Source: Hyphomicrobiales bacterium
GTDB lineage: Bacteria > Pseudomonadota > Alphaproteobacteria > Rhizobiales > Phreatobacteraceae
Direction of reading: 5' to 3'
Assembly (NCBI GenBank): GCA_017304475.1
Contig: JAFKKV010000024.1
Span: forward strand, 62,001-126,000
Length of the DNA: 64,000 bases
A program made the translations under genes and the position numbers. The notes beneath the pieces are model-generated. The model was given only the letters and a program-made list of their open reading frames with translations, did no database searches and was not told where the DNA came from. This document shows, in pieces, positions 14,514-46,882 of this stretch (position 1 is the stretch's first letter; each line of letters opens with the position of its first letter).

Positions 14514-14515
14514 TG

Positions 14516-15871: not shown

Positions 15872-15872
15872 G

Positions 15873-16220
15873 TCAGCGGATCTCCGGCCGGGCGGGATCA
15901 GCCAGATCCGCCGGCGCACTCCGAAACAACGTCGTCGGCGCAACCGGTGTCGGTAAGGATGTCTGGGCTGGTTGCCCGAGGAAGCGGCGACGGTTCTCGG
16001 CCCATGCTTTCAGGCAGCCGGGATCGCTCGTGCCAGCCTCGCCGATCTCGGAACAGCGAAGCAATTCGGCGGCGAGAGGATCTTGTGCGGCGACGGGACG
16101 GCCCTGCGTCGCGAGGGCGTCCGGCGAAACGTCCTTGCGGTTCATCTCGATCGCGGTCGCCGTGATGGCGACCGCGACGAAGACGATGGCGCCGACGCGC
16201 GCGAGGGTCTTGCCGTCCAT
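15873..16220 (-). CDS. Entry-exclusion-type protein TrbK-alt
   Basis: This 115-residue protein has an N-terminal hydrophobic helix (LARVGAIVFVAVAITATAIEM) and a periplasmic part with two cysteines (LLRCSEIGEAGTSDPGCLKAWAENRRRFLG). The length, the cysteine pair and the position between trbJ and trbL match the alternative TrbK family, proposed to prevent a donor from receiving a second copy. It lacks the lipobox of classical TrbK. The ATG at 16220 (MDGKTLARV) is chosen over an upstream start. Confidence 0.85.
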   Translation of the reverse strand: MDGKTLARVGAIVFVAVAITATAIEMNRKDVSPDALATQGRPVAAQDPLAAELLRCSEIGEAGTSDPGCLKAWAENRRRFLGQPAQTSLPTPVAPTTLFRSAPADLADPARPEIR

Positions 16221-16230
16221 CACGCCAGCC

Positions 16231-19427: not shown

Positions 19428-19441
19428 CGGCGCGCTCCCCG

Positions 19442-19723
19442 TCAGACCGAGAGGTGCGCGGGGACGCGCAGATGGCGGCGCACCACGTCGACGAAGAGCG
19501 GATCGCGCTTCGCGGCCCACACCGCCGCGACATGGCCGATCGCCCAGATGGCGATGCCGACCAACCAGAGGCGAAGGCCGAGGCCAACGGCGCCAGCGAG
19601 CGTCCCGTTCATGATGGCGATGGCGCGCGGCGCGCCGCCGAGCAGGATCGGCTCGGTCAGCGCCCGGTGAACGGGAGCCGTGTAGCCTGGGACATCGCCG
19701 CCCTGTTCGACACCGCCCGTCAT
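19442..19723 (-). CDS. trbD: Conjugal transfer protein TrbD (VirB3-like)
   Basis: This 93-residue inner-membrane protein of the T4SS has the family opening VPGYTAPVHRALTEPILLGGAPR, then two adjacent membrane helices (AIMNGTLAGAVGLGLRLWLVGIAIWAIGHVAAVWAA) and a basic tail. VirB3 proteins help to place the pilin and VirB4 in the membrane. The start at 19723 shares one base with the trbC stop. Confidence 0.93.
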   Translation of the reverse strand: MTGGVEQGGDVPGYTAPVHRALTEPILLGGAPRAIAIMNGTLAGAVGLGLRLWLVGIAIWAIGHVAAVWAAKRDPLFVDVVRRHLRVPAHLSV

Positions 19724-20070
19724 CAGACGAGCGCTCCGCCGCCGAACGAGAAGAACGACAGGAAGAAGCTCGACGCCGCGAAGGCGATCGACAGGCCGAA
19801 GACGATCTGGATCAGCCGGCGGAAGCCGCCTGATGTGTCGCCGAAGGCGAGCGTCAGGCCGGTGACGATAATGATGATCACCGCGATGATCTTGGCGACC
19901 GGGCCTTCGATCGACTGCAGGATCTGTTGCAGCGGCTGCTCCCACGGCATTGACGAGCCGGAGGCATGGGCGGGCGCGGCCATCATCACAGACAGCGTGG
20001 CGACGGACACGGTCATGGCGAGACGGCGGCGGACTTGAGTCCGGCACATTGAGCGCAGGCGTTGGATCAC
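19723..20070 (-). CDS. trbC: Conjugal pilin TrbC (VirB2-like)
   Basis: This 115-residue propilin has a signal peptide with a basic start ([15 protein letters not shown]), a hydrophobic stretch to APAHA (about residue 35), and a mature region with two membrane helices (AKIIAVIIIIVTGLTLAFG and LIQIVFGLSIAFAASSFFLSFF). This is the pattern of VirB2 pilins. The start is a GTG at 20068-20070 that overlaps the trbB stop as GTGA. Confidence 0.94.
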   Translation of the reverse strand: MIQRLRSMCRTQVRRRLAMTVSVATLSVMMAAPAHASGSSMPWEQPLQQILQSIEGPVAKIIAVIIIIVTGLTLAFGDTSGGFRRLIQIVFGLSIAFAASSFFLSFFSFGGGALV

Positions 20071-21083
20071 AGGCGTTCTCCTTCAGGGCTTGGGGTGAGC
20101 GAGGTCGGGCCGCCGGTGCCCTCGATGACGGCCGGCGCGACGCGGTAATCGCCATCGAGGCCGAGGCCCTTGACGCGTGCGAGCTCGGAGAGCCGGCGCG
20201 CCGAGCCGCGGCCGGAGAGGACGGCAACGATGTCGATCGTCTCGGCGATCAGCGCGCGCGGGACGGTGACGACGGCCTCCTGGATGAGCTGTTCCATTCG
20301 GCGCAGCGCACCGATCGCGCTGCCGGCATGGATCGTGCCGACGCCGCCGGGATGGCCGGTGCCCCAGGCCTTGAGCAGTTCCAGGGCTTCGGCGCCGCGC
20401 ACCTCGCCGATCGGAATACGATCGGGGCGAAGACGCAGCGAAGAGCGAACGAGATCGGAGAGAGAGGCGACGCCGTCTTTCGTGCGCATCGCCACGAGGT
20501 TCGGCGCGGCGCATTGCAGTTCGCGCGTATCTTCGATGATGACGACGCGATCGTCGGTCTTCGCGACCTCTGCGAGCAATGCGTTGGTCAGCGTGGTCTT
20601 GCCGGTGGACGTACCGCCGGCGACCAGAATGTTCGCGCGCGCAGCGACGCCTTCGCGTAACGTCTCGGCCTGCGCTGTCGACATGATGCCCGCTGCGACA
20701 TAGTCGTCGAGGGTGAACACTGCGACGGCGGGCTTGCGGATCGCGAAGGCTGGAGCCGCGACCACAGGCGGAAGAAGACCCTCGAACCTTTCCCCGGTCT
20801 CGGGGAGTTCGGCGGAGACACGCGGCGCGCCGGCATGGACTTCGGCACCGACGTGATGGGCGACCAGGCGGACGATGCGCTCGCCGTCGGCTGCCGGCAG
20901 CTTACGGCCGGTATCCTCAAGCCCGCTGGAGAGACGGTCGATCCAGAGCCGCCCGTCGGGATTCAGCATCACTTCGACAATGGACGGGTCTTCCAGGAAG
21001 CCAGCGATGGCAGGTCCGAACGCCGTGCGCAGCATGCGCGCGCCCCGCTGGATCGCCTCGGATTGCTGGTGCGTGGTCGTCAT
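20067..21083 (-). CDS. trbB: Conjugal transfer ATPase TrbB (VirB11-like)
   Basis: This 338-residue hexameric ATPase of the T4SS has an N-terminal domain (residues 1-130) and a RecA-like domain with Walker [17 protein letters not shown] near 145. An Asp box [13 protein letters not shown] and a His box [14 protein letters not shown] follow. It begins the trb block; the gap of about 140 bases upstream separates it from the CopG gene and may hold a promoter. The ATG at 21083 ([10 protein letters not shown]) is preferred over one ten codons upstream. Confidence 0.97.
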
Positions 21084-21225
21084 CTTGTCCCCGTGCTGGC
21101 GGGGACGCGGCATGCAGTCCCCTGACGGGGATGATTAAAAGAGCCGGAAATCGGGTCGGTTCAACAAGTATCTCGATGCGTGCGGCCATGGCGAAGAAAA
21201 GGCGGCAATCGGCGGAGTTGAATAT

Positions 21226-21693
21226 TCAGCCTGGATCGCCGTTTGTCTTGAAGAGCGCATGGTCTGCGCCGTCGCGCAGCGAGTCGACATCGCGCGAAAG
21301 CTCTTTCAGGAACCTGTCGCCGGTCGCCAATCGCCGACCGAGCGATTGCATGAAGCCTTCGAAGCGTTCCGTTCCTTTCGCGCGCGCCGAGGCTTGCGCG
21401 CTTTCGGGCAATGGCGGCGTGATAGTGAGCCAAAAGCGGATGAACAGCGAGACGGTCTCGCCCAGGATGGCGATATCCTCGTCGAGCCCATCGATCTGGC
21501 GGCCGAGCTTGTCCATGCGGCGTGCGAACACGGCCTCGAGCCGTTCGGAGGCGTCGGCCGAGAGGAAGGACGCGACGGCTGCTTCGATCACCGCGGATTT
21601 GGAGACATTGCGCCGGAGCGCCAGCGCCTCGACCTGCTTCAGTAGGCCGGGGTCGAAATAGACGTTCATGCGGGTCTTGGCCTGCACCGGCAT
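21226..21693 (-). CDS. CopG/ribbon-helix-helix regulator between traG and trbB
   Basis: This 155-residue protein has an N-terminal RHH motif (KTRMNVYFDPGLLKQVEALALRRNVSKSAVIEAAVASFL, residues 6-44) and a helical C-terminal half (RRMDKLGRQIDGLDEDIAILGETVSLFIRFWL). In related elements a CopG protein sits in exactly this place. It starts three bases after traG stops in the opposite reading sense of the operon order (traG upstream, then this gene, then trbB). It may autoregulate the transfer operon. Confidence 0.85.
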   Translation of the reverse strand: MPVQAKTRMNVYFDPGLLKQVEALALRRNVSKSAVIEAAVASFLSADASERLEAVFARRMDKLGRQIDGLDEDIAILGETVSLFIRFWLTITPPLPESAQASARAKGTERFEGFMQSLGRRLATGDRFLKELSRDVDSLRDGADHALFKTNGDPG

Positions 21694-21696
21694 CTC

Positions 21697-23685
21697 CTAC
21701 AATTCGATGCCGTCGGCCGGGTCCATCGTCGCCTGCCGGGCGACGATGCGAATACGCTGGCGCAGCGCTCGCGCCTTGGCGGCGTCCACGTCGGGCTCAT
21801 CGTCCAAAAGATCAAACTCCTGCTCGGGCGGCCGCGCGGCCGGGACGATCTCTTCATGCTCGGGCAATTCCGGCTCGCGGCGGATGCCGGCATTGGCCGG
21901 ATCGCCATCGGCGCCGTCGCTTGTTGTGGTTGCCGCCGCTGCGGCCGATGGCGCGATCACACGCGCCGACCATTCATCCGTCATCGTCGCTGCGGCTCGC
22001 GGCGCGATAAGATCGGGCGGCGGCAGGATGCGCTCCTTGAAGCGCGCATCCTCGAAATAGCGCGCCTTCTTCGCCCGGATCGGCGGCGTGCCCGCCACCA
22101 TGACGATCTCGTCGCTGGGCGGAAGCTGCATGATCTCGCCGGGCGTCAGGAGCGGCCGCGCCGTCTCCTGGCGCGACACCATGAGGTGCCCGAGCCACGG
22201 CGCCAGCCGATGGCCGGCATAGTTAGTGGAATCGCGCAGCTCCGTCGCGGTGCCGAGCGAATCCGACACACGCTTGGCGGTGCGCTCGTCATTGGCGGCG
22301 AAGGCGACGCGCACATGGCAATTGTCGAGGATCGAATTGTTCGACCCATAGGCGCGCTCGATCTGGTTGAGGCTCTGCGCGATCAGGAAACTCTTGAGAC
22401 CGTAGCCGGCCATGAAGGCCAAGGCGGACTCAAAAAAGTCCAATCGGCCGAGCGCGGGAAACTCGTCGAGCATGAGCAGCAGGCGATGGCGTTTGTTCGA
22501 CGCCTTCAATTCCTCGGTGAGCCGCCGGCCGATCTGGTTGAGGATCAGGCGGATCAGGGGCTTGGTGCGGTTGATGTCGGACGGCGGCACGACGAGGTAG
22601 AGGGTGACCGGCCGCCGGTCCCCGACCAGATCGGCGATGCGCCAGTCGCAGCGCGCCGTCACCTTCGCCACGACCGGATCGCGATAGAGGCCAAGGAAGC
22701 TCATGGCGGTCGACAGCACGCCGGATCGCTCGTTCTCTGATTTGTTGAGCAGCTCGCGCGCGGCGGAAGCAACGACGGGATGGACGCCCGCTTCGCCCAG
22801 ATGCGGCGCCGACATCATCGCGCGCAGCGTCGCTTCGACTGGCCGGCGCGGATCGGAGAGGAAGTTGGCGACGCCCGCCAGCGTCTTGTCGGGCTCGGCA
22901 TAGAGGACGTGCAGGATCGCGCCGACCAGCAGGCTGTGGCTTGTCTTCTCCCAATGGTTGCGCTTGTCGAGGCTGCCTTCGGGATCGACCAGGATGTCGG
23001 CGATGTTCTGGACGTCGCGCACCTCCCATTCGCCGCGCCGGACTTCCAGCAACGGATTGTAGGCGGACGATTGTGCATTGGTCGGATCGAACAGCAGCAC
23101 GCGGCCATGCTTGGCGCGGAAGCCGGCGGTCAGGGTCCAGTTCTCGCCCTTGATGTCGTGGACGATGCAGCTTCCCGGCCAGGTAAGCAGCGTCGGCACA
23201 ACGAGCCCGACACCCTTGCCACTCCGCGTCGGGGCGAAGCACAGCACATGTTCGGGGCCGTCATGGCGCAGATAATCCTGGATGTGCCGGCCGAGCACGA
23301 CGCCATCGGGACCAAGCAGGCCGACGGCGCGGATTTCCCGGTCGTCGGCCCAGCGGGCGGAGCCGTAGGTCGCCACATTGCGCGCCTCGCGCGCCCGGAT
23401 GAGCGACATGAAGATGGCGACGGCGATGGCGATGAAGCTGCCGGATACGGCGATCGCCGCTCCCTCCAGGAAGATGGATGGCGCATAGGCGTCGAACGAA
23501 AACCACCACCAGAAAAAAGCCGGTGGAGAATAGACCGGCCAGCCCGCCAGTTTGAACCATGGGGCGCCAAGCTGCGCCTGAAAGCCGAGCCGCCATGCGG
23601 TCCATTGCGTCGCCGCCCATGTCGTCAACAGCACAACGGTCAGGACAACGGCGATCTGACCCCAGAGTATTCGGCCTCCACGCAT
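21697..23685 (-). CDS. traG: Type IV coupling protein TraG (VirD4-like)
   Basis: This 662-residue ATPase brings the relaxosome to the secretion channel. It has two N-terminal membrane helices (QIAVVLTVVLLTTWAATQW and FLEGAAIAVSGSFIAIAVAIFMSL), Walker A APTRSGKGVGLVVPTLL near residue 150, and Walker B LLLMLDEFPALGRL near residue 400. The C-terminal tail is acidic and Ala/Pro-rich. The ATG at 23685 has GGAG seven bases upstream, so it is preferred to a TTG six codons earlier. Confidence 0.97.
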   Translation of the reverse strand: MRGGRILWGQIAVVLTVVLLTTWAATQWTAWRLGFQAQLGAPWFKLAGWPVYSPPAFFWWWFSFDAYAPSIFLEGAAIAVSGSFIAIAVAIFMSLIRAREARNVATYGSARWADDREIRAVGLLGPDGVVLGRHIQDYLRHDGPEHVLCFAPTRSGKGVGLVVPTLLTWPGSCIVHDIKGENWTLTAGFRAKHGRVLLFDPTNAQSSAYNPLLEVRRGEWEVRDVQNIADILVDPEGSLDKRNHWEKTSHSLLVGAILHVLYAEPDKTLAGVANFLSDPRRPVEATLRAMMSAPHLGEAGVHPVVASAARELLNKSENERSGVLSTAMSFLGLYRDPVVAKVTARCDWRIADLVGDRRPVTLYLVVPPSDINRTKPLIRLILNQIGRRLTEELKASNKRHRLLLMLDEFPALGRLDFFESALAFMAGYGLKSFLIAQSLNQIERAYGSNNSILDNCHVRVAFAANDERTAKRVSDSLGTATELRDSTNYAGHRLAPWLGHLMVSRQETARPLLTPGEIMQLPPSDEIVMVAGTPPIRAKKARYFEDARFKERILPPPDLIAPRAAATMTDEWSARVIAPSAAAAATTTSDGADGDPANAGIRREPELPEHEEIVPAARPPEQEFDLLDDEPDVDAAKARALRQRIRIVARQATMDPADGIEL

Positions 23686-23806
23686 ACAGGCTCCAATCGG
23701 CAAAAGAGATGGAGCCGATCAGAGAATAGGCGTTTTCGCGAGACTCAACAGAAAAGACATATCGGCGTGCCGCCGGATACCATGGCGTAGAAATCGGATG
23801 GTTCGC

Positions 23807-25368: not shown

Positions 25369-27417
25369 TCATAGCCCGAGTTCCCGCTGTTTCCCGAGCT
25401 GCCAGGATACCGATCCGCCCTGGACCACGCCGATAACCTCGCGGCCGCGCTGGCGCTCGATGACCGGCCGCCAGGGGACTAGGGTGAACTCATGGCTCTT
25501 CTCGACGATGGCAAATCTGCCGCTCGCGAGCTGGACGGTGCCGGTGAATGTGCCGCTCACGGTCTCGCCGTCTCCGGAGGCGCGGAACGGCATGGGCTTT
25601 GACACCGCCAGCTCGGCGCCGGCGCGCGCGACCTCACGCTCGCGCAGCGTGGCAAGCAGATTGCGGCGATAGAACACCCGGCCGGTCGGCTGGCGGGTGG
25701 CATCACCCTGGTCGATCAGATGTTCGCGGCGGCGGTCCATCGCCTGGGCGACGGCCTGTCCGAAGCCAGCCGGCGCCAGATCGGACGCCTCGCCTGCGAT
25801 CAGCCGGCGGTCGAGCCAGGTGGCGCCGTCCGCCCCGATCTGGCTTTCCAGATCGAAGGCCGAGAGGACGCGGATATTGACGCGGACACTGCGGCCGGCG
25901 TCATGGGCGGCTGCCCGGCTCTCGAAATCCTCGGGGATGCGCCAGCGGTCGGCGTCGATGCGCTCGACGATGCCGGCGCGGCGCAACGCCTCCAGCCGGC
26001 GGACATGGGCATCGACGAAGCCTTCGTAGTCGCCACCGGGCACGCGGCCGTCGAACCGGGCCTGCTCCAGATGGCGGCTCGGCTGATAGACGCCGTCCTT
26101 GGTCATAACGGCAATGGCGCGATCCGAAGGCCGGGCCGCCATATCGGCCGGACCGATCTCAACGATGCTGCCGATACGCGCATCCTCGACGCGACCCGCA
26201 TCGAAGCCGGAGACATGGTGCGCGCGGCCATCGATCCCGTCGACAACCAGGGTGATGTTCTCGCCCAGTTCGTCGGCGAGATGCTTGTCGATGACGCGGC
26301 CGACAATCGGCGCGCCTGCCGCGCCGTCATGAATCTGGAAGCTGGCCGGATCGCGCTCCTGTCCCTCCGCCCGAAGCACCTTCTGCATGGTGCGGATGAT
26401 GTCTCCGCGCTCGCCCAGCTCGCGCAGGGTGGGCTCAAGTCGGTCACTCAACTCCCAGACGCCCGGCGCATGCTCGGTGGCAAGCCCCATCTTTTCCAGC
26501 TTGCCAAGCCGGGCCAGACGAAGCGCCCGGCTGGCGATGCCGCGCGGATCGCCGGGCTCGGGACGAAGATCGACCAGGCCGTGGCGCGCCTCTGCGATCA
26601 TGGCGCGGTCGATGCGGGTGAAGCGGTCCTGACCGATTTCGGCGGAGAGCTTGCTCTGCTGCTCGATCTCGGTGACGGGACCGAGTTCGAGCGTCACGAG
26701 CGCGCTGGCGCGTTCGCGGACGCCGTGGGCGATATAGTCGCCGTTGATGACCAGATCCTCGCCCAGCTCGTCGCGGCCGTTGACGATAACATGGACATGG
26801 GGATGGCCGGTGTTGAGGTGATTGACCGCGATCCAATCGAGCTTCGTGCCGAGGTCGGCTTCGACCTGGCTCATCAGGTCGCGCGTGTAGCCGGTCAGGT
26901 CCGCAAGGTCGGCCGCATCCTCGGGCGAGACGATCAAGCGGAACTGGTGGCGGTCATCCTTGCCGCGATCGAGGAAGGCATCGCCGTCGGCGCGATCCGC
27001 GGTCGCCGAGTAGAGCTGGCCGCGCTCGCCGTCGCGCGAGGTTCCGTCGCGCTGAATGTAGCGCAGATGGGCGGCCGCGCGGCCGTTCTTGCCGGCGGCG
27101 CGGACGGAGCGCGATTTGACGATGACGCGGCGGCTGCCGGGCTGGCGATGGCTCCAGCCATCCGAGAGGTTGCGGGCGCGCACGAAGGCCGCGCCGCGGC
27201 CGCGCTTCACGCCCCGGCCGCTCGCCAATGCCGATCGTGATCCATCCTTGGCGGCGCGGCCCGTGGCAGCGGCACGCGCCCCGCGCGATGGCGATCCGCC
27301 ATGCTGGCGGGCGATCTTCTTGACCTTGGTGAAGAAGCTCTTGGTCTTGGCGCCGCCGCGCGCATCCGATCGAATGCGGCCTGGCCGTGGGCGGAAGTGG
27401 TTCTCGTCGTCGCTCAT
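25369..27417 (-). CDS. VirD2-like relaxase with DUF3363 domain
   Basis: This 682-residue DNA relaxase should nick the origin of transfer and pilot the strand. A basic N-terminus (residues 1-110) precedes the relaxase core, with AAAHLRYIQRDG near 114-125 and the metal-binding HPHVHVIVNG at 205-214. The DUF3363 domain fills the C-terminal half. This domain pair is the usual relaxase of trb-type alphaproteobacterial elements. The ATG at 27417 (MSDDENHF) is selected because upstream codons fall in the putative oriT. It is separated from the lytic transglycosylase gene by 292 non-coding bases. Confidence 0.95.
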   Translation of the reverse strand: MSDDENHFRPRPGRIRSDARGGAKTKSFFTKVKKIARQHGGSPSRGARAAATGRAAKDGSRSALASGRGVKRGRGAAFVRARNLSDGWSHRQPGSRRVIVKSRSVRAAGKNGRAAAHLRYIQRDGTSRDGERGQLYSATADRADGDAFLDRGKDDRHQFRLIVSPEDAADLADLTGYTRDLMSQVEADLGTKLDWIAVNHLNTGHPHVHVIVNGRDELGEDLVINGDYIAHGVRERASALVTLELGPVTEIEQQSKLSAEIGQDRFTRIDRAMIAEARHGLVDLRPEPGDPRGIASRALRLARLGKLEKMGLATEHAPGVWELSDRLEPTLRELGERGDIIRTMQKVLRAEGQERDPASFQIHDGAAGAPIVGRVIDKHLADELGENITLVVDGIDGRAHHVSGFDAGRVEDARIGSIVEIGPADMAARPSDRAIAVMTKDGVYQPSRHLEQARFDGRVPGGDYEGFVDAHVRRLEALRRAGIVERIDADRWRIPEDFESRAAAHDAGRSVRVNIRVLSAFDLESQIGADGATWLDRRLIAGEASDLAPAGFGQAVAQAMDRRREHLIDQGDATRQPTGRVFYRRNLLATLREREVARAGAELAVSKPMPFRASGDGETVSGTFTGTVQLASGRFAIVEKSHEFTLVPWRPVIERQRGREVIGVVQGGSVSWQLGKQRELGL

Positions 27418-27484
27418 CGGCGCGGATCCTGCCGATGAGTGGGATTTCCGGCTAGAGTGCCGCCGAGAGCCTTGCAAAGGCTGG

Positions 27485-27590
27485 CGTTCCGCCGGATGGC
27501 GGCACCATGCCCTCCATTCGAGGGTGCCACCCCCAACAGTGTGCAGACAAGGGCTTGCCCGGCAGATCGGCCCCATGGGGTGCCGTCCGC
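27485..27590. other. Candidate origin of transfer
   Basis: The stretch upstream of the relaxase holds three dyads in 85 bases: GGCA-CCATG-CCCTC-CATTC-GAGGG-TGCC (27501-27528), GGGC-TT-GCCC (27551-27560), and GGCA-GATCGG-CCCCATGGGG-TGCC (27561-27584). Two of them share the outer GGCA/TGCC pair. An oriT next to the relaxase gene and built from inverted repeats is usual, but no nick-site consensus was recognised. Confidence 0.35.
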
Positions 27591-30071: not shown

Positions 30072-30322
30072 GAGGTCTCTCCCTCGGTGGGTGGGAATTC
30101 GCGCGCGAGCAGCGCGCGCAGCATGTCGGTGACGGTCTCACCGCGCCGGAAGGCCGCGACCTTGATGCGGCCGCGCAGCTCCGGCGTGATGTCGATCGTC
30201 AGCCGCGCGGTGAAGGTGGCAGTGGCGTCCGCGCGCAGGGACTGCGCGTCGGGAGCCTTGATCCAGCTCTCGGCGTCGCCCGGGCGGGAGGCGAAGCCGC
30301 GCTTGCCGGCGCGCCCGGTCAT
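30068..30322 (-). CDS. Ribbon-helix-helix protein next to ParA
   Basis: This 84-residue protein has a disordered basic N-terminus (TGRAGKRGFASRPGDAESW) and a C-terminal RHH core (FTARLTIDITPELRGRIKVAAFRRGETVTDMLRALLAREF). The architecture matches ParG-type centromere-binding partners of ParA. It is encoded directly after parA with a four-base overlap. It probably binds a partition site and stimulates ParA. Confidence 0.82.
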   Translation of the reverse strand: MTGRAGKRGFASRPGDAESWIKAPDAQSLRADATATFTARLTIDITPELRGRIKVAAFRRGETVTDMLRALLAREFPPTEGETS

Positions 30323-30972
30323 GGCGCGGTCCTCGCGATTCGGAGCCGATCGATCTCGGCGGCAAGCGCGGCGATCTCGCGTGCGGCCGGACTGTCATCA
30401 TCGATCTCGGAAGCGAGCCGGCCGGACTGCGCAGCGTCGGCGAAGACGACACGCTGGCCGATGGTGCTGGCGAGCACGGGGGGATCGTGATCGGCCAGCG
30501 TCTCGGCCGTCTCGCGGGCGATGATGGTGCGCGCGCCGCAGCGGTTGAGCACGAAACGGGCTGCGAGCTGCGGCCGGTAGATGCGCGCTTCGCTGAGAAG
30601 CGCCAGCATCTCGGCCGAGGCCCAGCCGTCGAGCGGCGACGGCTGCACTGGGATCAGCACCAGGTCGACGGCGAGCAGCGCCGAGCGCATGAGGCCGGCG
30701 ATGCGCGGCGGACCGTCGATGACGACATGATCGGCGTCACGCGCCAGCTCGGGGGCTTCGCGATGCAGCGTGTCGCGCGCCAGGGCGACGACGCCGAACA
30801 GGCGCGGCAGGCCCTCGCGGCTCCGCTGCTGCGACCAGTCGAGCGCCGAGCCTTGCGGATCGGCGTCGATCAGGGTGACACGGTGTCCTCTGCTGGCCCA
30901 TGCACCGGCGAGATGCAGCGCGAGCGTCGTCTTGCCGACACCGCCTTTTTGGTTGAGGAGCGCGACGATCAT
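30319..30972 (-). CDS. parA: ParA-family partition ATPase
   Basis: This 217-residue Walker-type ATPase begins at once with LLNQKGGVGKTTLALHLAG (deviant Walker A, residues 5-23), followed by VTLIDADPQGSALDW and HVVIDGPPRIAGL. It is a short ParA lacking an N-terminal HTH, as on many mobilisable plasmids. It segregates the element's circular form or promotes its retention. It overlaps repA and the RHH gene by four bases each. Confidence 0.95.
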   Translation of the reverse strand: MIVALLNQKGGVGKTTLALHLAGAWASRGHRVTLIDADPQGSALDWSQQRSREGLPRLFGVVALARDTLHREAPELARDADHVVIDGPPRIAGLMRSALLAVDLVLIPVQPSPLDGWASAEMLALLSEARIYRPQLAARFVLNRCGARTIIARETAETLADHDPPVLASTIGQRVVFADAAQSGRLASEIDDDSPAAREIAALAAEIDRLRIARTAP

Positions 30973-31997
30973 GGCGCACCTCGGCGGGTGGCACCGGCAC
31001 CATGGATCGCGTGCGCGTGCGTCAAAGAAGAAGAGTTAGATTCTCTGTTAGATTCTTCTATAGAGTGCGCCGCGCGATTTGCGCCTGATGTACCGATAGT
31101 GCGTGCGCCTGATGTACCGATACCATTCACATGGTTTTCAACAGGCACTGTGGATTGTTTGTCGGGCCAGATGCGCAGCAGTTCGCGGTGGTCATCCCGT
31201 TCGATCTGAAGCCGGTAGCCGGGCAATGGCTGACGCGCCGCGATGCGGCGCAGGTCGAGCGCGAAATCGGAGACACGCGCGAGACTGCCGGACTTGGCGT
31301 GAAGATGCGCAATCTCGAACAGCCAGCCGTCGTGCTGGCGGCCGGCATGCTTGCGCGCGACGCGATACAGCCAGCGTTCGATGCCGCCGGTCAGCCGGAA
31401 ATAGGCCGGGTCGATGGCAAGCACCAGCGAGCGGTCGACGACGCCATTGTAGAACCATTCGGGCAGCACGAATTCCATGCCCTCAACGCGGCCGGCCTGC
31501 GTCGTCATCTCCTCCCATTCGTTGATCCAGGAGAATTGCCGGCGGCGCCAATGCGCGCCGTTGCGGATGGTTGTGGCGATGACGGTCGATTGCAGGCGCG
31601 CCAGCGCGGCCTTCAGCAACAGATATTGCCGGTTGCCGGTCGGGCGGCCGATACCGCGCAGGAGCTGGTAGGGTGTGAAGCGAAAGAAGCGCGAGGTCGC
31701 GAGCCCGCGGTTCGCGGCCTCGACGAGCTGCGAAGCGGCCCAGATCAGAACGTCGGCGTCCCAGATGGTGGCCATGCCATGCTCGGGCATGCCGAACACC
31801 CGCACCTCGACATCGGCGGCCTGGTAGAAGATCGGTCGGGTGCGCGGCGTCTTCGCCAGCGAAAAGAACGGCCGCTCCATCAGGTCGCGCTGGTCGCGGG
31901 GCGATGCGTCGCCGCCGATCACCACGAAAGGATCGAGGTTGGTCCGCTCGCTGGCTTTGCGCTGACGCTCGCGGCGATGGTCATCGTCGCGCGGCAT
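30969..31997 (-). CDS. repA: Replication initiator protein RepA
   Basis: This 342-residue protein matches the replication-initiator family of such elements, with LMERPFFSLAKTPRTRPIFYQ, then IWDADVLIWAASQLVEAANRG and a winged-helix pair around RFTPYQLLRGIGRPTGNRQYLLLKAALARLQST. Autonomous replication would help the excised circle survive. The last 60 residues are low-complexity and include a duplicated GTSGA segment encoded by an 18-bp direct repeat. The start immediately follows the stop of the HTH gene. Confidence 0.9.
   Translation of the reverse strand: MPRDDDHRRERQRKASERTNLDPFVVIGGDASPRDQRDLMERPFFSLAKTPRTRPIFYQAADVEVRVFGMPEHGMATIWDADVLIWAASQLVEAANRGLATSRFFRFTPYQLLRGIGRPTGNRQYLLLKAALARLQSTVIATTIRNGAHWRRRQFSWINEWEEMTTQAGRVEGMEFVLPEWFYNGVVDRSLVLAIDPAYFRLTGGIERWLYRVARKHAGRQHDGWLFEIAHLHAKSGSLARVSDFALDLRRIAARQPLPGYRLQIERDDHRELLRIWPDKQSTVPVENHVNGIGTSGARTIGTSGANRAAHSIEESNRESNSSSLTHAHAIHGAGATRRGAP
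31081..31122. repeat. 18-bp direct repeat inside repA
   Basis: GCGCCTGATGTACCGATA occurs at 31081-31098 and 31105-31122 with a 24-base period. It encodes the repeated GTSGA segment near the C-terminus of RepA. The period and position could be an iteron for RepA binding, or simply a short tandem duplication. Confidence 0.8.
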
Positions 31998-39230: not shown

Positions 39231-39935
39231 TTACGAAAGTCCCTCCAGCACCAGACGAGCGACGGTCTGCGCGCGCGTCCTGGCGCCGAACTTACGGCGG
39301 GCCTGATCGATATGGGTCCTCACCGTGGTCTGGGACACGCCGAGCAGATCGGCGATCTCCCAATCGGTCTTTCCAGCCGCCACCCATCGGATGCATTCCA
39401 ATTCGCGATGGGTGAGCGCAGCCCGCGGATTGATGACCGGCGCTAGTCTGGTCAAGGCGCGGCATCGCTCATGCGTGAGGAAGGCAAGCTGGTGCAATTC
39501 GCCGCGCAGGGCGGGCGGCATGGGTCGCTCCTTGCCCGCCATGGCGACGAGCCCGAAATAGCCGCCCGGTCCGTGGATCGGAACCGACAGCCCGTCCGTC
39601 CAGCCCCATTCGCCAGCGGTGTCCCAAATATCCTGTTCGGCGCGCGACAAGGTGCGCACGGCCTTCGCCTCTAGCCAGGTAAAGGGCGCGATGCGCCGTC
39701 TGGCTTCGGCTACGGTGTAATCGGCGGCGAGGAAATTGCGCCTAACATAGAGCTCGATCCAGTCAGGCGGCCAGTCCTGGAAGAAGAAATGCGTCTCCGG
39801 TCCCATATCAGTCGGCAGGAAGGCGCCGCAAGCGCTGGCAGTATAGCCATGGACAGCGATCCGCTGCTTGAACAACGCCTTGACCGCATCGATCGTCGCG
39901 CAGGCCGCAAGCGCGCCGGCGAATTCATCGTCCAT
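39231..39935 (-). CDS. LuxR-family regulator, solo A
   Basis: This 234-residue quorum-sensing-type regulator has an N-terminal autoinducer-binding domain and a C-terminal GerE HTH (LTHRELECIRWVAAGKTDWEIADLLGVSQTTVRTHIDQARRKFG). It keeps the ligand-pocket pattern Trp59-x3-Tyr63-x8-Asp72 of acyl-homoserine-lactone receptors. No luxI-like synthase is in the window, so it is a solo that could sense signals from the host or neighbours. A close paralogue is at 45262-45966. The ATG at 39935 is chosen because both paralogues share it. It may link conjugation or cargo expression to population density. Confidence 0.9.
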   Translation of the reverse strand: MDDEFAGALAACATIDAVKALFKQRIAVHGYTASACGAFLPTDMGPETHFFFQDWPPDWIELYVRRNFLAADYTVAEARRRIAPFTWLEAKAVRTLSRAEQDIWDTAGEWGWTDGLSVPIHGPGGYFGLVAMAGKERPMPPALRGELHQLAFLTHERCRALTRLAPVINPRAALTHRELECIRWVAAGKTDWEIADLLGVSQTTVRTHIDQARRKFGARTRAQTVARLVLEGLS

Positions 39936-40195
39936 CGCTGAACCTATTCCTTTGAACCGGAACGTTGCGATCGCTGCCGAAGCATCGCGCGCAGGCGCCT
40001 TCACAAATGCTGCGCCGCTCGATGCTCACCCGCTGCGAACGATGCGGATGGCGTCGCCGCGCTTCAAAATGCGATCCTGAGCCCGACCTATCGCGGCGGG
40101 ATTGGACGATGCGCTGGTGAACTGGCGACTTCGCTGTTTCTTGACGCAATCGATTGTGTTCCTCAAGGCCGCAATCGTCCTCGCTGTATGATCGG

Positions 40196-43100
40196 TCAGA
40201 ACCTCACGCTGAGATTGGCGCGAACCGATTGATCACTGGCGCTGGGGGCGAACTGGCCGCTGTAGGATATGCCGAGGGTCGCGGCGGGTGTAAGGTTGAG
40301 ATCAAGCCCAGTCTCGATGATTGCGGCATCTCTTGCGATCGGCACACCGGCGACCGTGAAGGGGTTGCCAGCGGAGAAGGCTTGCATTGACAGAGGCGTG
40401 GTGTCGCCGAAGGCGTGCCGCCAGCCGAGCGAGCCGCGCGCGGTCAGGTTGATGTCGGCGAGAGCAAAGCCAGTCGAGGCCCTGAGGCCAAGCGTGGTGA
40501 ACGTCGTATCCATGGTCTGGCCGTTGGCGCGGAGCCCCGCCACGCCGCCCTGTTCGGCAAAGCCGCCGTTGTTGAGGTTTACATAAGCCAGATTAGCGAA
40601 GGGTTCGAACGAAGCGACAGGCGTGTCGATGCGGTAGCCGAGATCGCCGAAGGCCTGGAAGGTGCCGGCATCGTATTTGCCCTTCAGGCTATCCGCGAAG
40701 CCGGGGAAGATGGCGGAGCGGCTGGTCGAGATATCGTGCCATGTGTAGGTAAGGCCGGTGCGCAAACCAAGAGCCCCCCATTGCGTGCCGCCATAAAGGC
40801 CAAGGTGATAGTTGTCGCTCGATCCGGAAGACTGGCGGTCCCGAACATTGAAGCTGGTGCGGCTATAGCCGGCGATGAGGCCGAGCCGCCAGGTCTCGAA
40901 CACCGGTGTGTCGGCGCCGATCAGGAAACCGCCGGTCGAGCGCTCGAGGCGTGCGGCATTGCCGTCGCTGCTGGTGTGGCCCCAGGAGCCAAAGCCCTGG
41001 CCCCAGACGGCCAGGCGGTCGCCGGTGGGGGCGACAGCCTGTGGGCCGCCGGGACCATAGGCCATCACCGGTAGAGAGGATGCGGCAACATCCGCGAAGG
41101 CCGAGCGGATGCGGTCGGTCGCGGCATCACGCACGAAGCGGCTGTCCTCGATCAGCGCCGTCTTGGCGCTGGCATAGATCTCGCCCGAAACCGCATCGAA
41201 GGCGCGGCGGGCGGTAGGCGCGTCGAGTTGCAGGACGGCCGCATAGATCGGATGGCCCCAACCCAGCGATTCTACCCCACCGCCCGCGGCACGCTGATTG
41301 CGCGTGCCGCCGATCGTGGCGAAGTCGGTGCTGTTGCGGTTCAACGTCAGATAAACATTGCTCGGATCGTAAGTGAGGACCGGCGTCAGGAAGGCGAAGT
41401 TCGAGGTGGCGCCGGCAAAGTTGCCATTGCGCCCACCAGTGGCGGTGAGGATGGTGTAGGTGGTCGCCGGCGCATAGTTTCCGGCGCTGGCCAGCACCTT
41501 GACTGTCCCGCCCTGGATCATTGCTGTGCCCGTGGCGAGGATCTTGTCCGCTTGACCTGCTGCGTTGGCTTCAACCTCGTAAATCGAGCCAGGCGCGAAT
41601 GTGACATTCCCGGTGACGTTGAGTGTGCCAATCGAGTTGCCCGGCGCGATCGTACCGCCGGCGTTCACCGTGGTCGAGCCGACGGTGCCGCTACCGGCAA
41701 GTATGCCGCCCGAACTGACCGTGGTCAGCGCCGAAGTGGCGATGGAGCCATCGACCACGAGAGTGCCAGCGTTGATCGTCGTAGCGCCAGTGTAAAGATT
41801 GGTCCCGGTCAGACGGAAAACGCCCGTCCCCACCTTGGTCATGCTGCCGGAGCCGCCGATGGTACCCGATAACGTGGTCGAGGCGTTATCGGCTCCTGTC
41901 GTCAGAGTGCCGGCGCCTAACGTGACATTGCCGGCGCCAGCGAGCGAACCGATGGCCTGGTTGAAATTATTGAGATCGAGCGTTGCAGCGCCATTCACCG
42001 TATGGGCAGAATTAGCCGAGAAGGCGTTCGCATTCGCGGCCTGCAACACGCCGGCGGAAACCAGCGTCGCGCCACTATAGTTGATCGTGGAACTGAAACC
42101 ACTCCCTGAGGTTTGTAGCGTCAGAGTCCCGCTCCCGGTCTTGGTCAGTCCGCCGGTCCCGATGATCGAACCGAAATAAGTGCCATTCTGGTTATCGCCG
42201 CCGATCGTGAGCGTACCTGCGCCGAGATCTATGGTCGGAAGCGCCCCAGGGAGGAATGCGAAGGACGTGAAACTGTCGAGCGAGGCGATCGTCTGGTTGA
42301 AGCCGTTGAGCTTCAACGTGGTGTCTCCATTCAGTGTAAAGCGCGAATTAGGCGACAGCACGTTGGCGGCGCCCGTCTGCAGCATGAGCGTGAATGAGGG
42401 CCCCCCTGATGCCCCAAGTAAGAAGGTACCCCCCGTATACGTCGTCGCCCCGCTGAGTGTTAGATTTTGGCCTCCACCGAACATTACAAAGTTGCCCGAC
42501 CCTGAGATCGTGCCGGCGAACGTTCGCGGCGCGCTATCGCCGCCAAAGAGAGTAAAAGACGTGGACGGATTAGCATGGTTCACGATAGTACCCGCACCCG
42601 ACAGATTCGCGACGCTCGCGCCTCCAGCCGCAATGTTGACGGTGGTGCCAGGATTGGTCACTAGCAACGACCTTGGCGCAACCAAGGGATCGCCCGAAAC
42701 GAGCCCGCCGAAATTCACTGTCCCTGACGTAACGGTCGTATTGCCGAGATAGTCTCCTATAACGTTGCTGAGCGTGACGGCGCCTGTCGTTGCGACACTG
42801 AGACCGAAATTTCCGCCAATCGCAATCCCGTCGAGAGCGCTGTTCTTCAGATTGATGGAGACTGGAACGACGATCGCAGGCAGGGGGCTTGCGAGCGCAA
42901 TATTCCCGATCAGACCCGCCTGAAGCACAATGGTATTGCTGCCGGGCGTTGCATTGCTGTCGATGATCGCCTGACGCAGCGATCCGGCGCCAGAGTCGTT
43001 TGTGTTCGTGATCGTAAAATTCGCTGCTCGCGCAGGGTCCGCGCCCAAAGCCGCGCCGCATAGTGCGGTACTGATCAAAAAGCCTCGACGGAACAAAGTG

Positions 43101-43219
43101 CTCGGCGCACAGCGAAAAATGCCGTTCAGAAGGGTGATCGAGAGCAGCCGCCCGCGCTCAATGGTCGCGACCAATAACCGTCGGATTGTCTCGAAAGAAA
43201 TATCTGCTGGAACCTTCAT
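40196..43219 (-). CDS. Autotransporter (type V secreted) protein
   Basis: This 1007-residue protein has an extended N-terminus with an internal hydrophobic signal (GFLISTALCGAALGADPARA, about residues 46-65). The passenger is built of Gly/Thr/Asn-rich beta-helix repeats, including several PATR-type units (LTKTGSGTLTL, MTKVGTGVFRLTGTNLYTGATTI). A C-terminal autotransporter barrel begins near residue 740 (DRLAVWGQGFGSWGHTSSDGN) and ends in Phe (NLSVRF). It should be displayed on or released from the cell surface, where it may aid adhesion or aggregation. The ATG at 43219 is preferred; the frame stays open upstream into a different gene. Its codon use includes more AT-rich codons than the transfer genes. 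Confidence 0.93.
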   Translation of the reverse strand: MKVPADISFETIRRLLVATIERGRLLSITLLNGIFRCAPSTLFRRGFLISTALCGAALGADPARAANFTITNTNDSGAGSLRQAIIDSNATPGSNTIVLQAGLIGNIALASPLPAIVVPVSINLKNSALDGIAIGGNFGLSVATTGAVTLSNVIGDYLGNTTVTSGTVNFGGLVSGDPLVAPRSLLVTNPGTTVNIAAGGASVANLSGAGTIVNHANPSTSFTLFGGDSAPRTFAGTISGSGNFVMFGGGQNLTLSGATTYTGGTFLLGASGGPSFTLMLQTGAANVLSPNSRFTLNGDTTLKLNGFNQTIASLDSFTSFAFLPGALPTIDLGAGTLTIGGDNQNGTYFGSIIGTGGLTKTGSGTLTLQTSGSGFSSTINYSGATLVSAGVLQAANANAFSANSAHTVNGAATLDLNNFNQAIGSLAGAGNVTLGAGTLTTGADNASTTLSGTIGGSGSMTKVGTGVFRLTGTNLYTGATTINAGTLVVDGSIATSALTTVSSGGILAGSGTVGSTTVNAGGTIAPGNSIGTLNVTGNVTFAPGSIYEVEANAAGQADKILATGTAMIQGGTVKVLASAGNYAPATTYTILTATGGRNGNFAGATSNFAFLTPVLTYDPSNVYLTLNRNSTDFATIGGTRNQRAAGGGVESLGWGHPIYAAVLQLDAPTARRAFDAVSGEIYASAKTALIEDSRFVRDAATDRIRSAFADVAASSLPVMAYGPGGPQAVAPTGDRLAVWGQGFGSWGHTSSDGNAARLERSTGGFLIGADTPVFETWRLGLIAGYSRTSFNVRDRQSSGSSDNYHLGLYGGTQWGALGLRTGLTYTWHDISTSRSAIFPGFADSLKGKYDAGTFQAFGDLGYRIDTPVASFEPFANLAYVNLNNGGFAEQGGVAGLRANGQTMDTTFTTLGLRASTGFALADINLTARGSLGWRHAFGDTTPLSMQAFSAGNPFTVAGVPIARDAAIIETGLDLNLTPAATLGISYSGQFAPSASDQSVRANLSVRF

Positions 43220-43538
43220 ATTCGTCCTGGTATTGAAATATGAGGCAGAGCGCTTCCTCAGCGTCCAAAGCTGCGATTCGCTCTCGGCAAATGCAAGCGA
43301 TCCCCACTGCCAAGAGCGGAAAATTCGGGGGACACTACCGACACTTGATACGTGACATGAGCCTTGGCTTACCCGTGTGATCGTGCAACCAGTTGTTCTC
43401 GCTAGATACCGGATCGAGCTTTGGAAGTTTGGCTGTTTCCGCCAACTCGTAGACAACCGTACGTTTTCTAGACGATGCACCAAGCGCGCGGCGATACTCC
43501 TGAAAATATTATCACCTCTACTTAAAGGCGGCGCGCTC

Positions 43539-43885
43539 TCAATCATTCCAGAACGCCTGCTTCCCCTTCGCGGGCCGGAGCGCCCGCGACCGTTTGCCCA
43601 CATCGCTTTGGAGCTTGTCGGCCATCCAGAGCAATCCGCCGAGGATGGTGGCGCGCTCAGCGCTAGCAAGGATGCGCCTGCCAGCATGGCGCCCGCCCGC
43701 GCAGGATCACAGGTTGCGCCCTTGGGGGCGACCGCGCGTTCTCCAGCGCGCATCACGCCGTTCGTGCAATGCTGGCATCGGCCATTGCCGCCGCATAGGT
43801 TGCACACACGCCCGTCGGCTTGAACCCCGGATCCGCTGCACCCGGCGCAGCGCGCGGAGCCATTACAATAATAACAGGTAGCCAT
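43539..43885 (-). pseudogene. Zinc-ribbon membrane protein interrupted by a frameshift
   Basis: The ATG at 43885 begins MATCYYCNGSARCAGCSGSG with four CxxC-type pairs in the first 42 residues, resembling the DnaJ zinc-finger repeats (CxxCxGxG). The frame then shows AMLAGASLLALSA. In another frame the sequence continues TILGGLLWMADKLQSDVGKRSRALRPAKGKQAFWND with a stop at 43539. Joining them by removing two bases in the GCGCGC run near 43660 creates a perfect membrane helix and a basic tail. The likely original product is about 115 residues: zinc ribbon, linker, one membrane helix. It lies upstream of the autotransporter, separated from it by 319 bases with no gene. Confidence 0.6.
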
Positions 43886-44054
43886 CGCCTCGCCCTTTGA
43901 TCATGAAACAACGCACGTCACCCAAGGCGACAGACGCGCAGTCGACTACGGTAACTAAGGGATGATGATGTGGTCGCGGTCGTCGGCGGTTCTTCAGCAA
44001 TCGGCATTTACGGCCGTTTACCCGCCCCCTCCTTGCCGACATTTACACCCCCTG

Positions 44055-44140
44055 GAATCAAATCCATAAAACGAGGATCAAAATCGCGATTTTCGAGAGG
44101 GATGTCTCTCCTCGAAAACGAGGAGGCGAGCGCAAAAATC
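44055..44140 (+). repeat. Dispersed hairpin repeat, copy 2
   Basis: The order AATCAAATCC, AAAATCGCGATTTTCGAG, CTCTCCTCG-AAAA-CGAGGAG (hairpin 44106-44125) and GCAAAAATCC matches copy 1 on the opposite strand. It lies just beyond the stop of the membrane-protein gene at 44208, in a 322-base gap (43886-44207) that has no other feature I can support. Confidence 0.62.
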
Positions 44141-44207
44141 CGTGCGTTGATCGACGTTTCGCCCCCTCGCGCGTCGCCTGCGCGCCTCAGCCATACAGGC
44201 GAACGGA

Positions 44208-44900
44208 TCAGGCGGCTTTCTTCCGGGTCAAGAGGGACGTCAGCACCGCCACCCAATCCCATTTGATCAAGGCCGTCGCAAGCGGCGCATAGGCCAGCGC
44301 GACGGCGGACATCGCGCCGGTGCTCTCCCAGAACGAACGCGCCAGGCGCGCATAGCCGGCGGGCCATTCCGGCTCGGTGTCGGGTAGGAAAAGCCAGCGC
44401 CAGAGAAGGGCGATGGCAACGCCGAGCGGCACGCCGGCCATGCTAATGCCAAAACCAAGGGCTTTTCCGACATGGCGTTCGGCCCTGCCGGCGACGATCT
44501 GCACCGCCAGAATAACGCCGATGATGATGGGCCAAAGTGCATGGGCGATCAGATAGCCGCCCCATGCGATACGCAATTCAGCGTTTAGCGAGAAAAACCA
44601 GAACGGTGCGGCGCAAGGCAAAATCAAGACGGCGAACATCGCGAAGCCCGCCAGCGGATACAGAATATCCTTGGTCCTGGCGCGCTCGTCGAGCCACGTG
44701 AACCAGCGGCGGGTGCTCTTCAGGGTTACTTCGAGTCGCGCATCACCGTCGGCGTCGACGACGATCGTCCACTTGGCGACGGTGAACTTGTCCGCAACGC
44801 CCGCGAGTTCAAGCGATGCGCCGACCTCGAAAGCCGAGGAAAAGCCGCTAGCATCCTGAGACCAGTCAGGCTTCTCCGCCTGCCTCAGAACGATGCGCAT
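44208..44900 (-). CDS. Hypothetical membrane protein
   Basis: This 230-residue protein has a soluble N-terminal domain (residues 1-75, MRIVLRQAEKPDWSQDASGFSSAFEVGASLELAGVADKF, ending in KSTRRWFTWLDERARTKD). Four membrane helices follow (LYPLAGFAMFAVLILPCAAPFWFF; AHALWPIIIGVILAVQIVAG; GFGISMAGVPLGVAIALLWRWLF; SAVALAYAPLATALI) and a basic C-terminus. The ATG at 44900 follows GGAGGGAG in the mRNA. It is not recognised. It belongs to the cargo block between the two LuxR genes. Confidence 0.75.
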   Translation of the reverse strand: MRIVLRQAEKPDWSQDASGFSSAFEVGASLELAGVADKFTVAKWTIVVDADGDARLEVTLKSTRRWFTWLDERARTKDILYPLAGFAMFAVLILPCAAPFWFFSLNAELRIAWGGYLIAHALWPIIIGVILAVQIVAGRAERHVGKALGFGISMAGVPLGVAIALLWRWLFLPDTEPEWPAGYARLARSFWESTGAMSAVALAYAPLATALIKWDWVAVLTSLLTRKKAA

Positions 44901-45149
44901 AATGTGCTCCCTCCTCAAAAAGCGATCCTGAGCCCGACTTGTCCGGCGTGGCTCGTCGAGGCGCCAAAGCGAGCGCGGCATGCTCTCGCGACCGAAGCCG
45001 CCAGCGGGTCAGCGAGCGCCGCCATCGAACAGAGCGCCGACGCTGCCAGCAGGACGGCGTCGGGCGCCCGCATGGCCCGAGCGTCTCTGCTTTCCCACTA
45101 GATCCGGACAGTCTTCGCCCTCCTCGATGTTTCGCAACGCACGCTCCCA

Positions 45150-45240
45150 AAAATCAAACTCGCAAACAATCTCGGCTCAAAGTCGCGGGTTTTCAGCGCC
45201 GCGTCTCTCCTCGAACACGAGGAGGAGTGACAAAAAACAT
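45150..45240 (+). repeat. Dispersed hairpin repeat, copy 3
   Basis: AAAAATCAAACTC, AAAGTCGCGGGTTTTCAG, then CTCTCCTCG-AACA-CGAGGAG (hairpin 45205-45224) and GACAAAAAACATCC follow the same order as copies 1 and 2 but with more differences. The copy ends 22 bases from the LuxR B stop. The 361-base gap 44901-45261 otherwise holds only a possible remnant of an outer-membrane protein gene near 44920. Confidence 0.55.
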
Positions 45241-45261
45241 CCCCGCCCGTTCCCTCGCGGA

Positions 45262-45966
45262 TTACGACAGTCCGCTTAGCACCAGGCGCGCGACCGCCTG
45301 CGAGCGCGTCCTAGCGCCCAGCTTGCGGCGGGCCTGATCGATATGAGTCCTCGCTGTGGTCTGCGATACGCCGAGCAGGCGGGCGATCTGCAAATCCGTT
45401 TTGCCGGCCGCCACCCAGCGCAGGCATTCCAGCTCCCGATGGGTGAGCGTCGCCTGCGGATCGGTCACTGGCGCAAGACCAGTCAAAGCGCGGCAGCGTT
45501 CATGCGTCAGGAAAGCAAGCTGTTGCAGTTTGCCGCGCAGCGCGGGCGGCATGGGTTGCTCCTTGCCAGCCATGGTGACGATCGCGAAATAACCGCCCGG
45601 GCCGTGGATCGGCACCGACAGCCCGTCCGTCCAGCCCCATTCGACGACCGTATCCCAAATGTCCTGTTCGGCGCGCGACAGGGTGCGCTCGGCTTTCGCT
45701 TCCCGCCAGGTGAATGGCGCGATGCGCCGTCGCGCCTCGGCGACCCCATAGTCGGCGGCGACGAAATTGCGGTTGACATAGAGTTCGAGCCAGTCCGGCG
45801 GCCAGTCCTGGAAGAAGAAATGCGGCTCCGGGCCCTTGTCGGCCGGGAGGAAAGCGCCGCATGCGCTGGCGGTATAGCCGTGGGCTGCGATGCGCCGCTT
45901 AAACAAGGCTTTGACCGCATCGATCGTCGCGCACGCCTCAAGCGCGGCGGCAAACTCATCCTCCAT
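45262..45966 (-). CDS. LuxR-family regulator, solo B
   Basis: This 234-residue paralogue of solo A has the same length and a very similar sequence throughout (FFFQDWPPDWLELYVNRNFVAADY and LTHRELECLRWVAAGKTDLQIARLLGVSQTTARTHIDQARRKLG). The Trp-x3-Tyr-x8-Asp pocket pattern is kept. Differences cluster in the ligand pocket neighbourhood (VNRNFVAADYGVA against VRRNFLAADYTVA) and the HTH (LQIARLLGVSQTTARTH against WEIADLLGVSQTTVRTH), so ligand or target site may have diverged. No synthase gene is nearby. Confidence 0.9.
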   Translation of the reverse strand: MEDEFAAALEACATIDAVKALFKRRIAAHGYTASACGAFLPADKGPEPHFFFQDWPPDWLELYVNRNFVAADYGVAEARRRIAPFTWREAKAERTLSRAEQDIWDTVVEWGWTDGLSVPIHGPGGYFAIVTMAGKEQPMPPALRGKLQQLAFLTHERCRALTGLAPVTDPQATLTHRELECLRWVAAGKTDLQIARLLGVSQTTARTHIDQARRKLGARTRSQAVARLVLSGLS

Positions 45967-46605: not shown

Positions 46606-46721
46606 GAGCTAGGGCACCGATCCGCACGACGTCTTTATGCCCGGAGCCAGCGGTTACTACATTTAGGAGGGGGTTAGAGGGTTATTGCGTAGAAGTAGTT
46701 CTCATCATCACCCGGTGCGGC

Positions 46722-46730
46722 GCGCCATTT
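46722..46730 (+). other. attR core (9 bp) with alternative recombinase tail
   Basis: GCGCCATTT is identical to the left core. On the minus strand it reads K-W-R and continues in frame through AAPGDDENYFYAITL to a TAA at 46674-46676. This is the end of the recombinase gene as it would exist in the excised circle. On the other side, TTCCTCG at 46731 continues the T-run, as expected behind a tRNA gene. The chromosome resumes at 46731; 46731-46882 holds no gene. Confidence 0.82.
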
Positions 46731-46882
46731 TTCCTCGATACCTGAAAGCGCGCGAGCGTCGATTCTTGTCCTGCCCACGGGGGTGGTGCGATGAGGCGCG
46801 GGCTTCGGTCTCATGACGTGATTCCGGATGTCGCGATCGTCGTGATCCGCATGGGATAGGTGACACCGGCCGTTGGCGCCAT

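Follow-up and report, generated by a model that had tools for sequence, protein, structure and literature searches.

A parked 3' tail of a large serine integrase gene marks the right end of a predicted trb-type ICE at a tRNA-Arg gene

A 39.5-kb element at a tRNA-Arg gene

The window, i.e. the whole 64,000-nucleotide stretch of DNA analysed here, contains a 39.5-kb mobile element, made up of positions 7236-46721 and a 9-bp core, that is located at the 3' end of a tRNA-Arg (CCG) gene (Table 1). Because Pfam and NCBIfam models identified a Trb set, TraG, an RlxS-like relaxase, ParA and a RepA-type initiator, and because an integrase, a mating-pair apparatus, a coupling protein and a relaxase lie together in one bounded element, as is the case for an ICE, the element is classified by its gene content as a trb-type ICE that was inserted in tRNA-Arg by a large serine integrase, and its excision and conjugal transfer are predicted.

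Table 1. Features of the element and its flanks (positions in the window)
Feature	Position	Strand	Basis
tRNA-Arg (CCG), target gene, intact after insertion	7156..7232	+	ARAGORN
attL core GCGCCATTT, tRNA-Arg 3' end + TTT	7227..7235		exact repeat of 46722-46730
Large serine recombinase, integrated form	7167..8861	-	Pfam Resolvase, Recombinase, Zn_ribbon_recom; translation
30 nt of recombinase body beside the Trp codon, putative inner attP arm (P')	7233..7262	-	inferred from G146
HTH protein, candidate partner or regulator; gene overlaps recombinase start by 4 nt	8858..9247	-	Pfam HVO_A0114 / HTH
Conjugation module: TrbI, CagX (TrbG-like), TrbL, TrbE, T2SSE ATPase (TrbB-like), TraG	11510..23703	-	Pfam, NCBIfam
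Relaxase (RlxS-like, DUF3363)	25369..27576	-	below NCBIfam cut-off, above Pfam DUF3363 cut-off
ParA-like ATPase (30319-30972) and RepA-type initiator (30969-31997)	30319..31997	-	Pfam
Cargo: LuxR regulator, 1229-aa autotransporter, second LuxR regulator	39231..45966	-	Pfam
Parked recombinase tail, AAPGDDENYFYAITL + TAA; also putative outer attP arm (P)	46674..46721	-	frame, core repeat; matching tails at relatives' far ends and in genome contigs
attR core GCGCCATTT	46722..46730		exact repeat of 7227-7235
Chromosomal sequence originally after tRNA-Arg, pre-insertion (probable)	46731..46758	+	19/28 matches to G008 empty site

All three domains of the large serine integrase (PF00239, PF07508 and PF13408) scored above their cut-offs, and S19 within the YLRVST motif, which we take to be the catalytic serine near the N-terminus, is invariant across the 21 alignment rows of the recombinase. 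The gene runs into its own target: the CCA of tRNA-Arg, read antisense, is a Trp codon of the recombinase, and the residues past W544 (7167-7229) are antisense tRNA. At the other end of the element, the minus strand from 46730 to 46674 reads K W R A A P G D D E N Y F Y A I T L stop, which keeps to the reading frame of the recombinase. The circle form of the recombinase would end in ...KW-RAAPGDDENYFYAITL followed by a stop; of the predicted C-terminal peptides of the two forms, one reads ...KWRAAPGDDENYFYAITL. When the integrated form was modelled structurally (mean pLDDT, 75; pTM, 0.36), residues 530-564 had pLDDT values <50, and either ending would therefore be a flexible tail; beyond this predicted flexibility of the recombinase end, the model says no more. 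The putative inner attP arm was delimited with the aid of genome G146, in which the junction occurs a second time, there lacking a recombinase but retaining the CCA and exactly 30 identical nucleotides.

The identity between the two cores does not extend beyond 9 bp, and att-site identity is likewise very short in several relatives (6 bp or little more). Since the window holds five copies of the core 9-mer, counting both strands, against 1.15 expected, and one of them is at 46876-46884, about 150 bp to the right of attR, a 9-bp match is weak evidence on its own, and a blastn comparison of the left and right junctions returned chance words only. The call of the right end rises above chance because tails that match this one, oriented alike and read in the same frame, stand at the far ends of relatives. 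The copies of the 9-mer at 11211 and 46876 were considered as right ends and rejected; their in-frame continuations (WR-stop, and a frame of >50 residues) are not tail-like. An earlier note on this DNA had described 46674-46730 as the separated 3' end of the recombinase gene, lying 38 kb from the rest and defining the right boundary to the base. The separation holds for 48 bases (46674-46721), the other nine being the core found at both ends, and the measured distance is 39.5 kb. The tail does mark the right end, as relatives' matching tails indicate, but the boundary is resolved by sequence comparison to within the 9-bp core and not to a single base.

In a genome of the same genus (G008), no element is present at the tRNA-Arg locus, which reads tRNA-CCA-TTTTTCC, GGTGCGCCATTTTTCC. 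Identity between the two loci is 93% in the 169 bp up to and including the tRNA and TTT, and 83% in 1.46 kb of left flank beyond these. Beyond the right core, 46731 onward matches the G008 site at 19 of 28 bases, a score that was reached just once among 31,892 28-mers drawn for comparison from two G008 stretches, presumably at the site itself; when element sequence was substituted for the right flank, six matches were obtained. An empty site of tRNA-Arg followed by TTTTT, as had been predicted, was thus seen in G008. Past about 28 bases, no similarity is visible between the right flank of the window and G008, and the G008 relative of the Imm-5-like gene to the right of the junction is located elsewhere, so that a rearrangement right of the junction relative to G008 is likely. 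This gene, at 46883-47482 near the right junction, encodes an Imm-5-like immunity protein. At five other tRNA-Arg loci of the genus (G001, G005, G006, G007 and G010), the sequence following the CCA is unlike 46731 onward and contains no T5 directly after the CCA; the left flanks of these loci are more diverged (75-80% identity versus 83-93% for G008).

The further proposal that TTTTT is a natural tRNA terminator moved by the element was not borne out by these five loci or by terminator scans. T5 alone is no bacterial terminator. In the scan of the G008 locus, the plus strand yielded no terminator-like site and the minus strand yielded two. On the plus strand of the integrated right end, a single terminator-like match takes in the T5 (46714 onward); this number is at the level of shuffled sequences (mean 0.4, sd 0.6), and the terminator claim is not supported.

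Recombinase relatives and the position of their tails

A profile cut at the Trp codon (A1; E-value threshold, 1e-60; at most three candidates scored per genome) was searched against 397 genomes of the order and gave 47 matches in 41 of them, including the window's own; the group is common in the genomes sampled. As A1 ends at the Trp, the search favours copies that reach it, whereas the presence of an adjacent tRNA is not favoured thereby. In the 33 matches that were assembled (1.27 Mb in total, window included), the last profile codon is invariably a Trp derived from an opposite-strand CCA. ARAGORN placed a tRNA 3' end exactly at this Trp in 23 of 30 loci (window's included), the targets being tRNA-Arg (CCG, ACG), tRNA-Ser (CGA, GCT, TGA) and tRNA-Asn. 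The other seven loci comprise three that run off the contig at this point, two with an antisense-tRNA-like ending for which no tRNA was called, and two that are broken or partial. Among 37 IMG/VR loci of the recombinase, the DSN word of antisense tRNA occurs in 23 endings by our own count, and the remainder have a different ending or are cut.

The tail pattern was built from nine tails and constrains many bases; weight therefore rests on its free positions, the stop codon and controls. In its strict form, the pattern gave 11 matches in nine of the 33 assembled regions, all on the expected strand and none on the other, with the tail lying 3.9-55 kb away. No strict tail was found in the other 24 regions, in which some contigs are short and some enzymes diverged. 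A search for core repeats without the motif detected tails in the window and G086 and, with more distant enzymes, in G050, G127 and G146; that of G086 (WRTAPDEDDNYAYAIAL followed by a stop) has a 13-bp core and lies 15.7 kb away, and the last three have more diverged endings. The motif search added tails in G011, G131, G254, G241, G071 and G346, and the strict pattern added that of G215. Core length alone would miss most of the relatives' tails: G131 contains a 14-bp repeat at 5.5 kb without a tail-like frame, and its tail at 3.9 kb shares just 6 bp, and longer, non-tail repeats are present elsewhere in G215, G226 and G346.

Tail distances and recombinase distances are correlated (Mantel r = 0.59, p = 1e-4, 13 pairs, G050 excluded; r = 0.87 with G050 included), the nearer of two tails having been used for G241 and G346. 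In 29 of the 30 pairs for which one stretch holds both tail and tRNA, the tail core equals the 3' hexamer of the tRNA. Of the 30, four pairs (window, G086, G050 and G127) owe their discovery to the core and agree for that reason, and G346 and G241 are represented twice. At the base left free by the pattern, tail and tRNA agree in 27 of 27 cases (20 C/C and 7 G/G, with the window and G086 among them; p = 1.1e-6 given the margins, if the pairs are independent). Six other tRNAs (in L218, L273, L277 and L284) are in an unexpected place or orientation and were left unpaired. Two same-strand tails in a row were observed in the G241:C6 and G346:C1 regions, L217 and L242; these double tails are read as probable tandem insertions at one tRNA gene.

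Tails in genome contigs at large

A scan of genome contigs with the tail pattern identified at least 120 stretches with at least 122 matches, and two stretches were found in viral contigs. By our reading of the titles of 80 of the at least 120 stretches, the hosts are mostly Alphaproteobacteria, with exceptions that include Brenneria salicis (Gammaproteobacteria) and a gammaproteobacterial MAG. Recombinase coding was detected in the 600 nt upstream of none of the 122 tails listed (118 with at least 90 nt testable), as opposed to 33 of 33 in the positive control; this absence is what integrated elements would show. Likewise, neither the 122 tails listed nor the 37 IMG/VR loci, some of which are cut before the end, include a tail attached to an intact full-length recombinase. 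In one stretch (L320), recombinase residues about 1-389 are naturally fused in frame to a tail, which suggests that recombinase and tail were once neighbours.

The recombinase was found in 20 of 40 tail-bearing genomes tested (40 of the 120 loci) and in 41 of 397 genomes of the order sample (Fisher's exact test, 6.8e-9), a comparison that is rough because all candidates were scored in the former and at most three per genome in the latter. In the other 20 tail-bearing genomes, no recombinase was found at the cut-off used, and 14 of 20 tail-bounded segments examined contained no recombinase match; the tail therefore persists without the enzyme. Segments of 0.75-5.5 kb, extending from a tail to a tRNA or to another tail, were observed in L188, L206, L212, L217, L233, L234, L242, L255 and others, and several tail-bounded segments have a common alternative inner end like CCA followed by AACACCGCCGATTGCC. 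Those without a recombinase look like non-autonomous tRNA cassettes. In the cassette at L242:383-5331, Pfam models recognised a DNA methylase, a patatin-like phospholipase and an oligonucleotide cyclase, and PADLOC models for the effector and the cyclase matched as well; the set appears CBASS-like. A small 2.6-kb element at tRNA-Ser (L187:867-3444) includes about 1.6 kb of recombinase and has a far-end tail. In G040 (L004:1501-1554), tail-like DNA matching at 35 of 40 positions has a frame broken relative to TGGCGC and is read as a putative frame-broken relic of a tail; the preceding gene looks, by eye, like one for acetone carboxylase gamma.

Interpretation and relation to known systems

In the circular form of the element, the recombinase gene would run through the attP core, where Trp-Arg is the antisense of the GCGCCA end of the tRNA, and would continue for about 15 more tail residues before a stop. 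Recombination with the tRNA cuts the gene at the core; in the integrated state, the expressed integrase gains an antisense-tRNA ending and its original ending is parked at attR, from where excision would rejoin it to the gene. Comparison of sequences shows how these parts are laid out, that relatives share the layout, that the tail core matches the target tRNA and that the parked tail has an open frame whose stop is selected; translation of the tail in the circle, under selection at both the protein and the DNA level, is inferred from the features described below. We regard this anatomy with a translated and selected tail as highly probable.

Among the 122 tails listed, 68 have a stop at exactly codon 18, in three spellings (TGA, 37; TAA, 27; TAG, 4), and the frame ends within 21 residues in 112, against a stop-triplet background of 2.2%. 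In the first 82 tails, conservation drops to background right past codon 18, and the Thr at codon 8 is spelled in four ways (ACG, ACA, ACC and ACT). Some synonymous positions are fixed, Glu being written GAA at codon 7 and, in 91 of 92 cases, GAG at codon 9, and codon 15 being ATA (Ile) in 99 of the 122 tails listed; part of the conservation is therefore at the DNA level, and constraint at both levels is likely. In the window, the ATA codon lies at 46683-46685; codon 15 is often inside a GCTATAGC-like word.

A bolder reading is that the C-terminus of the integrase is self-edited: the circle enzyme would be integration-competent with its conserved acidic-aromatic tail, integration would swap in antisense tRNA, and this switch of state, beyond a separate factor, would set direction; the enzyme could also move small tail-bounded tRNA cassettes, at least one of which carries phage-defence genes, in trans. 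We assign this reading as a whole a probability of roughly one in three. As to function, we tentatively favour the view that the tail acts only in the circle, most likely by aiding attP x attB recombination or by setting stability, with the swap contributing to direction.

Serine integrases require specific attP arms, and the tail might be conserved only as DNA, as the outer attP arm bound by the integrase, so that its protein reading would be incidental and the swap without consequence. The fixed synonymous codons and the retention of the tail in segments without a recombinase fit this explanation, and the closed alternative frames of the tails (stops in 109 and 101 of the 122 tails listed) could stem from a conserved DNA motif. 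The stop at codon 18, the loss of conservation beyond it and the four spellings of Thr speak against it, as does, by eye, an ending of the same acidic-aromatic-hydrophobic type in the diverged G050 and G146, both of which were found by core repeat; we consider conservation as DNA alone unlikely. Still less likely is that the tail is a degradation tag, by which the circle-encoded integrase would be short-lived until integration removed the tag. Between the tail consensus, about DEDENYVYAIAL, and the host tmRNA tag ANDNYAPVAVAA there is a loose resemblance, and the low pLDDT of residues 530-564 in the integrated enzyme is as a tag would need; yet the resemblance is by eye, and the tail terminates in -AL or -TL rather than in -AA. 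A parallel would be the mycobacteriophage BPs repressor, which, in the available part of its description, has attP within its gene, is changed at its C-terminus by integration and loses an ssrA-like tag (PMC4557955). Chance association of a 9-bp repeat with an unrelated open frame, which the five occurrences of the 9-mer in the window would permit, can be set aside in view of the 11 to 0 strand distribution, the core matches in 29 of 30 pairs, the at least 122 tails in genome contigs and the empty site in G008.

Gene-splitting attP sites are known in other systems. In archaeal suicidal tyrosine integrases (SSV1, pTN3 and pT26-2), attP lies within the integrase gene and integration separates the gene ends, as far as described in the accessible text of PMC8371274. 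The window's integrase gene likewise contains attP; unlike the archaeal type, a tyrosine recombinase left as inactive halves, it encodes a bacterial serine integrase in which the three recognised Pfam domains all remain and about 15-20 C-terminal residues are exchanged, so that a C-terminal tail alone is separated, in contrast to the archaeal separation of the catalytic domain. The BPs repressor and ORF13 of phage RSS0, whose C-terminus is also changed by integration according to the part of PMC3816273 consulted, resemble the present case in that attP in a gene alters the end of its protein. In those phages, a repressor or regulator gene is cut; the present element cuts its integrase gene, which takes its new ending from antisense tRNA. 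The Ralstonia phages RSM encode a small serine recombinase acting at tRNA-Ser with a core, TGGCGGAGAGGGT, that is the reverse of the tRNA 3' end (PMC3816273 and PMC5608472, each in part). They share with the window a serine recombinase and a core from a tRNA 3' end, but the RSM recombinase is small (196 aa in Rs551) and its attP is intergenic and not across the recombinase 3' end; RSM-type phages were therefore rejected as the same system, their attP being outside the gene. Serine recombinases integrating in a tRNA gene, as does the window's enzyme, were called rare in 2011 in a report of Mycobacterium AICEs at tRNA-Leu, the available portion of which mentions no gene-straddling core or parked tail (PMC3218068). 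No description of a tail-exchanging bacterial serine integrase was found in the literature searched, which excludes most subscription journals. What is new is a bacterial serine integrase exchanging its own tail.

The tail signature gives precise ends for many elements, and the group offers candidate serine integrases to match conserved tRNA landing sites. With this group, experiments can ask directly whether an integrase protein carries a record of its integration state. In large serine integrases, a directionality factor controls the direction of the reaction, and the HTH gene at 8858-9247 is a possible lead to such a factor. An HTH gene also adjoins an 82%-identical recombinase on Brevundimonas, Enterobacter and Klebsiella plasmids. 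On plasmids of Enterobacter hormaechei and Klebsiella oxytoca (L075 and L076), this 82%-identical recombinase is accompanied by trb genes and has the unusual end KWRAIC-stop, with no tRNA called alongside. The endings of plasmid copies differ, being KWRAIC or KWRTTMASKPTAAR, each followed by a stop.
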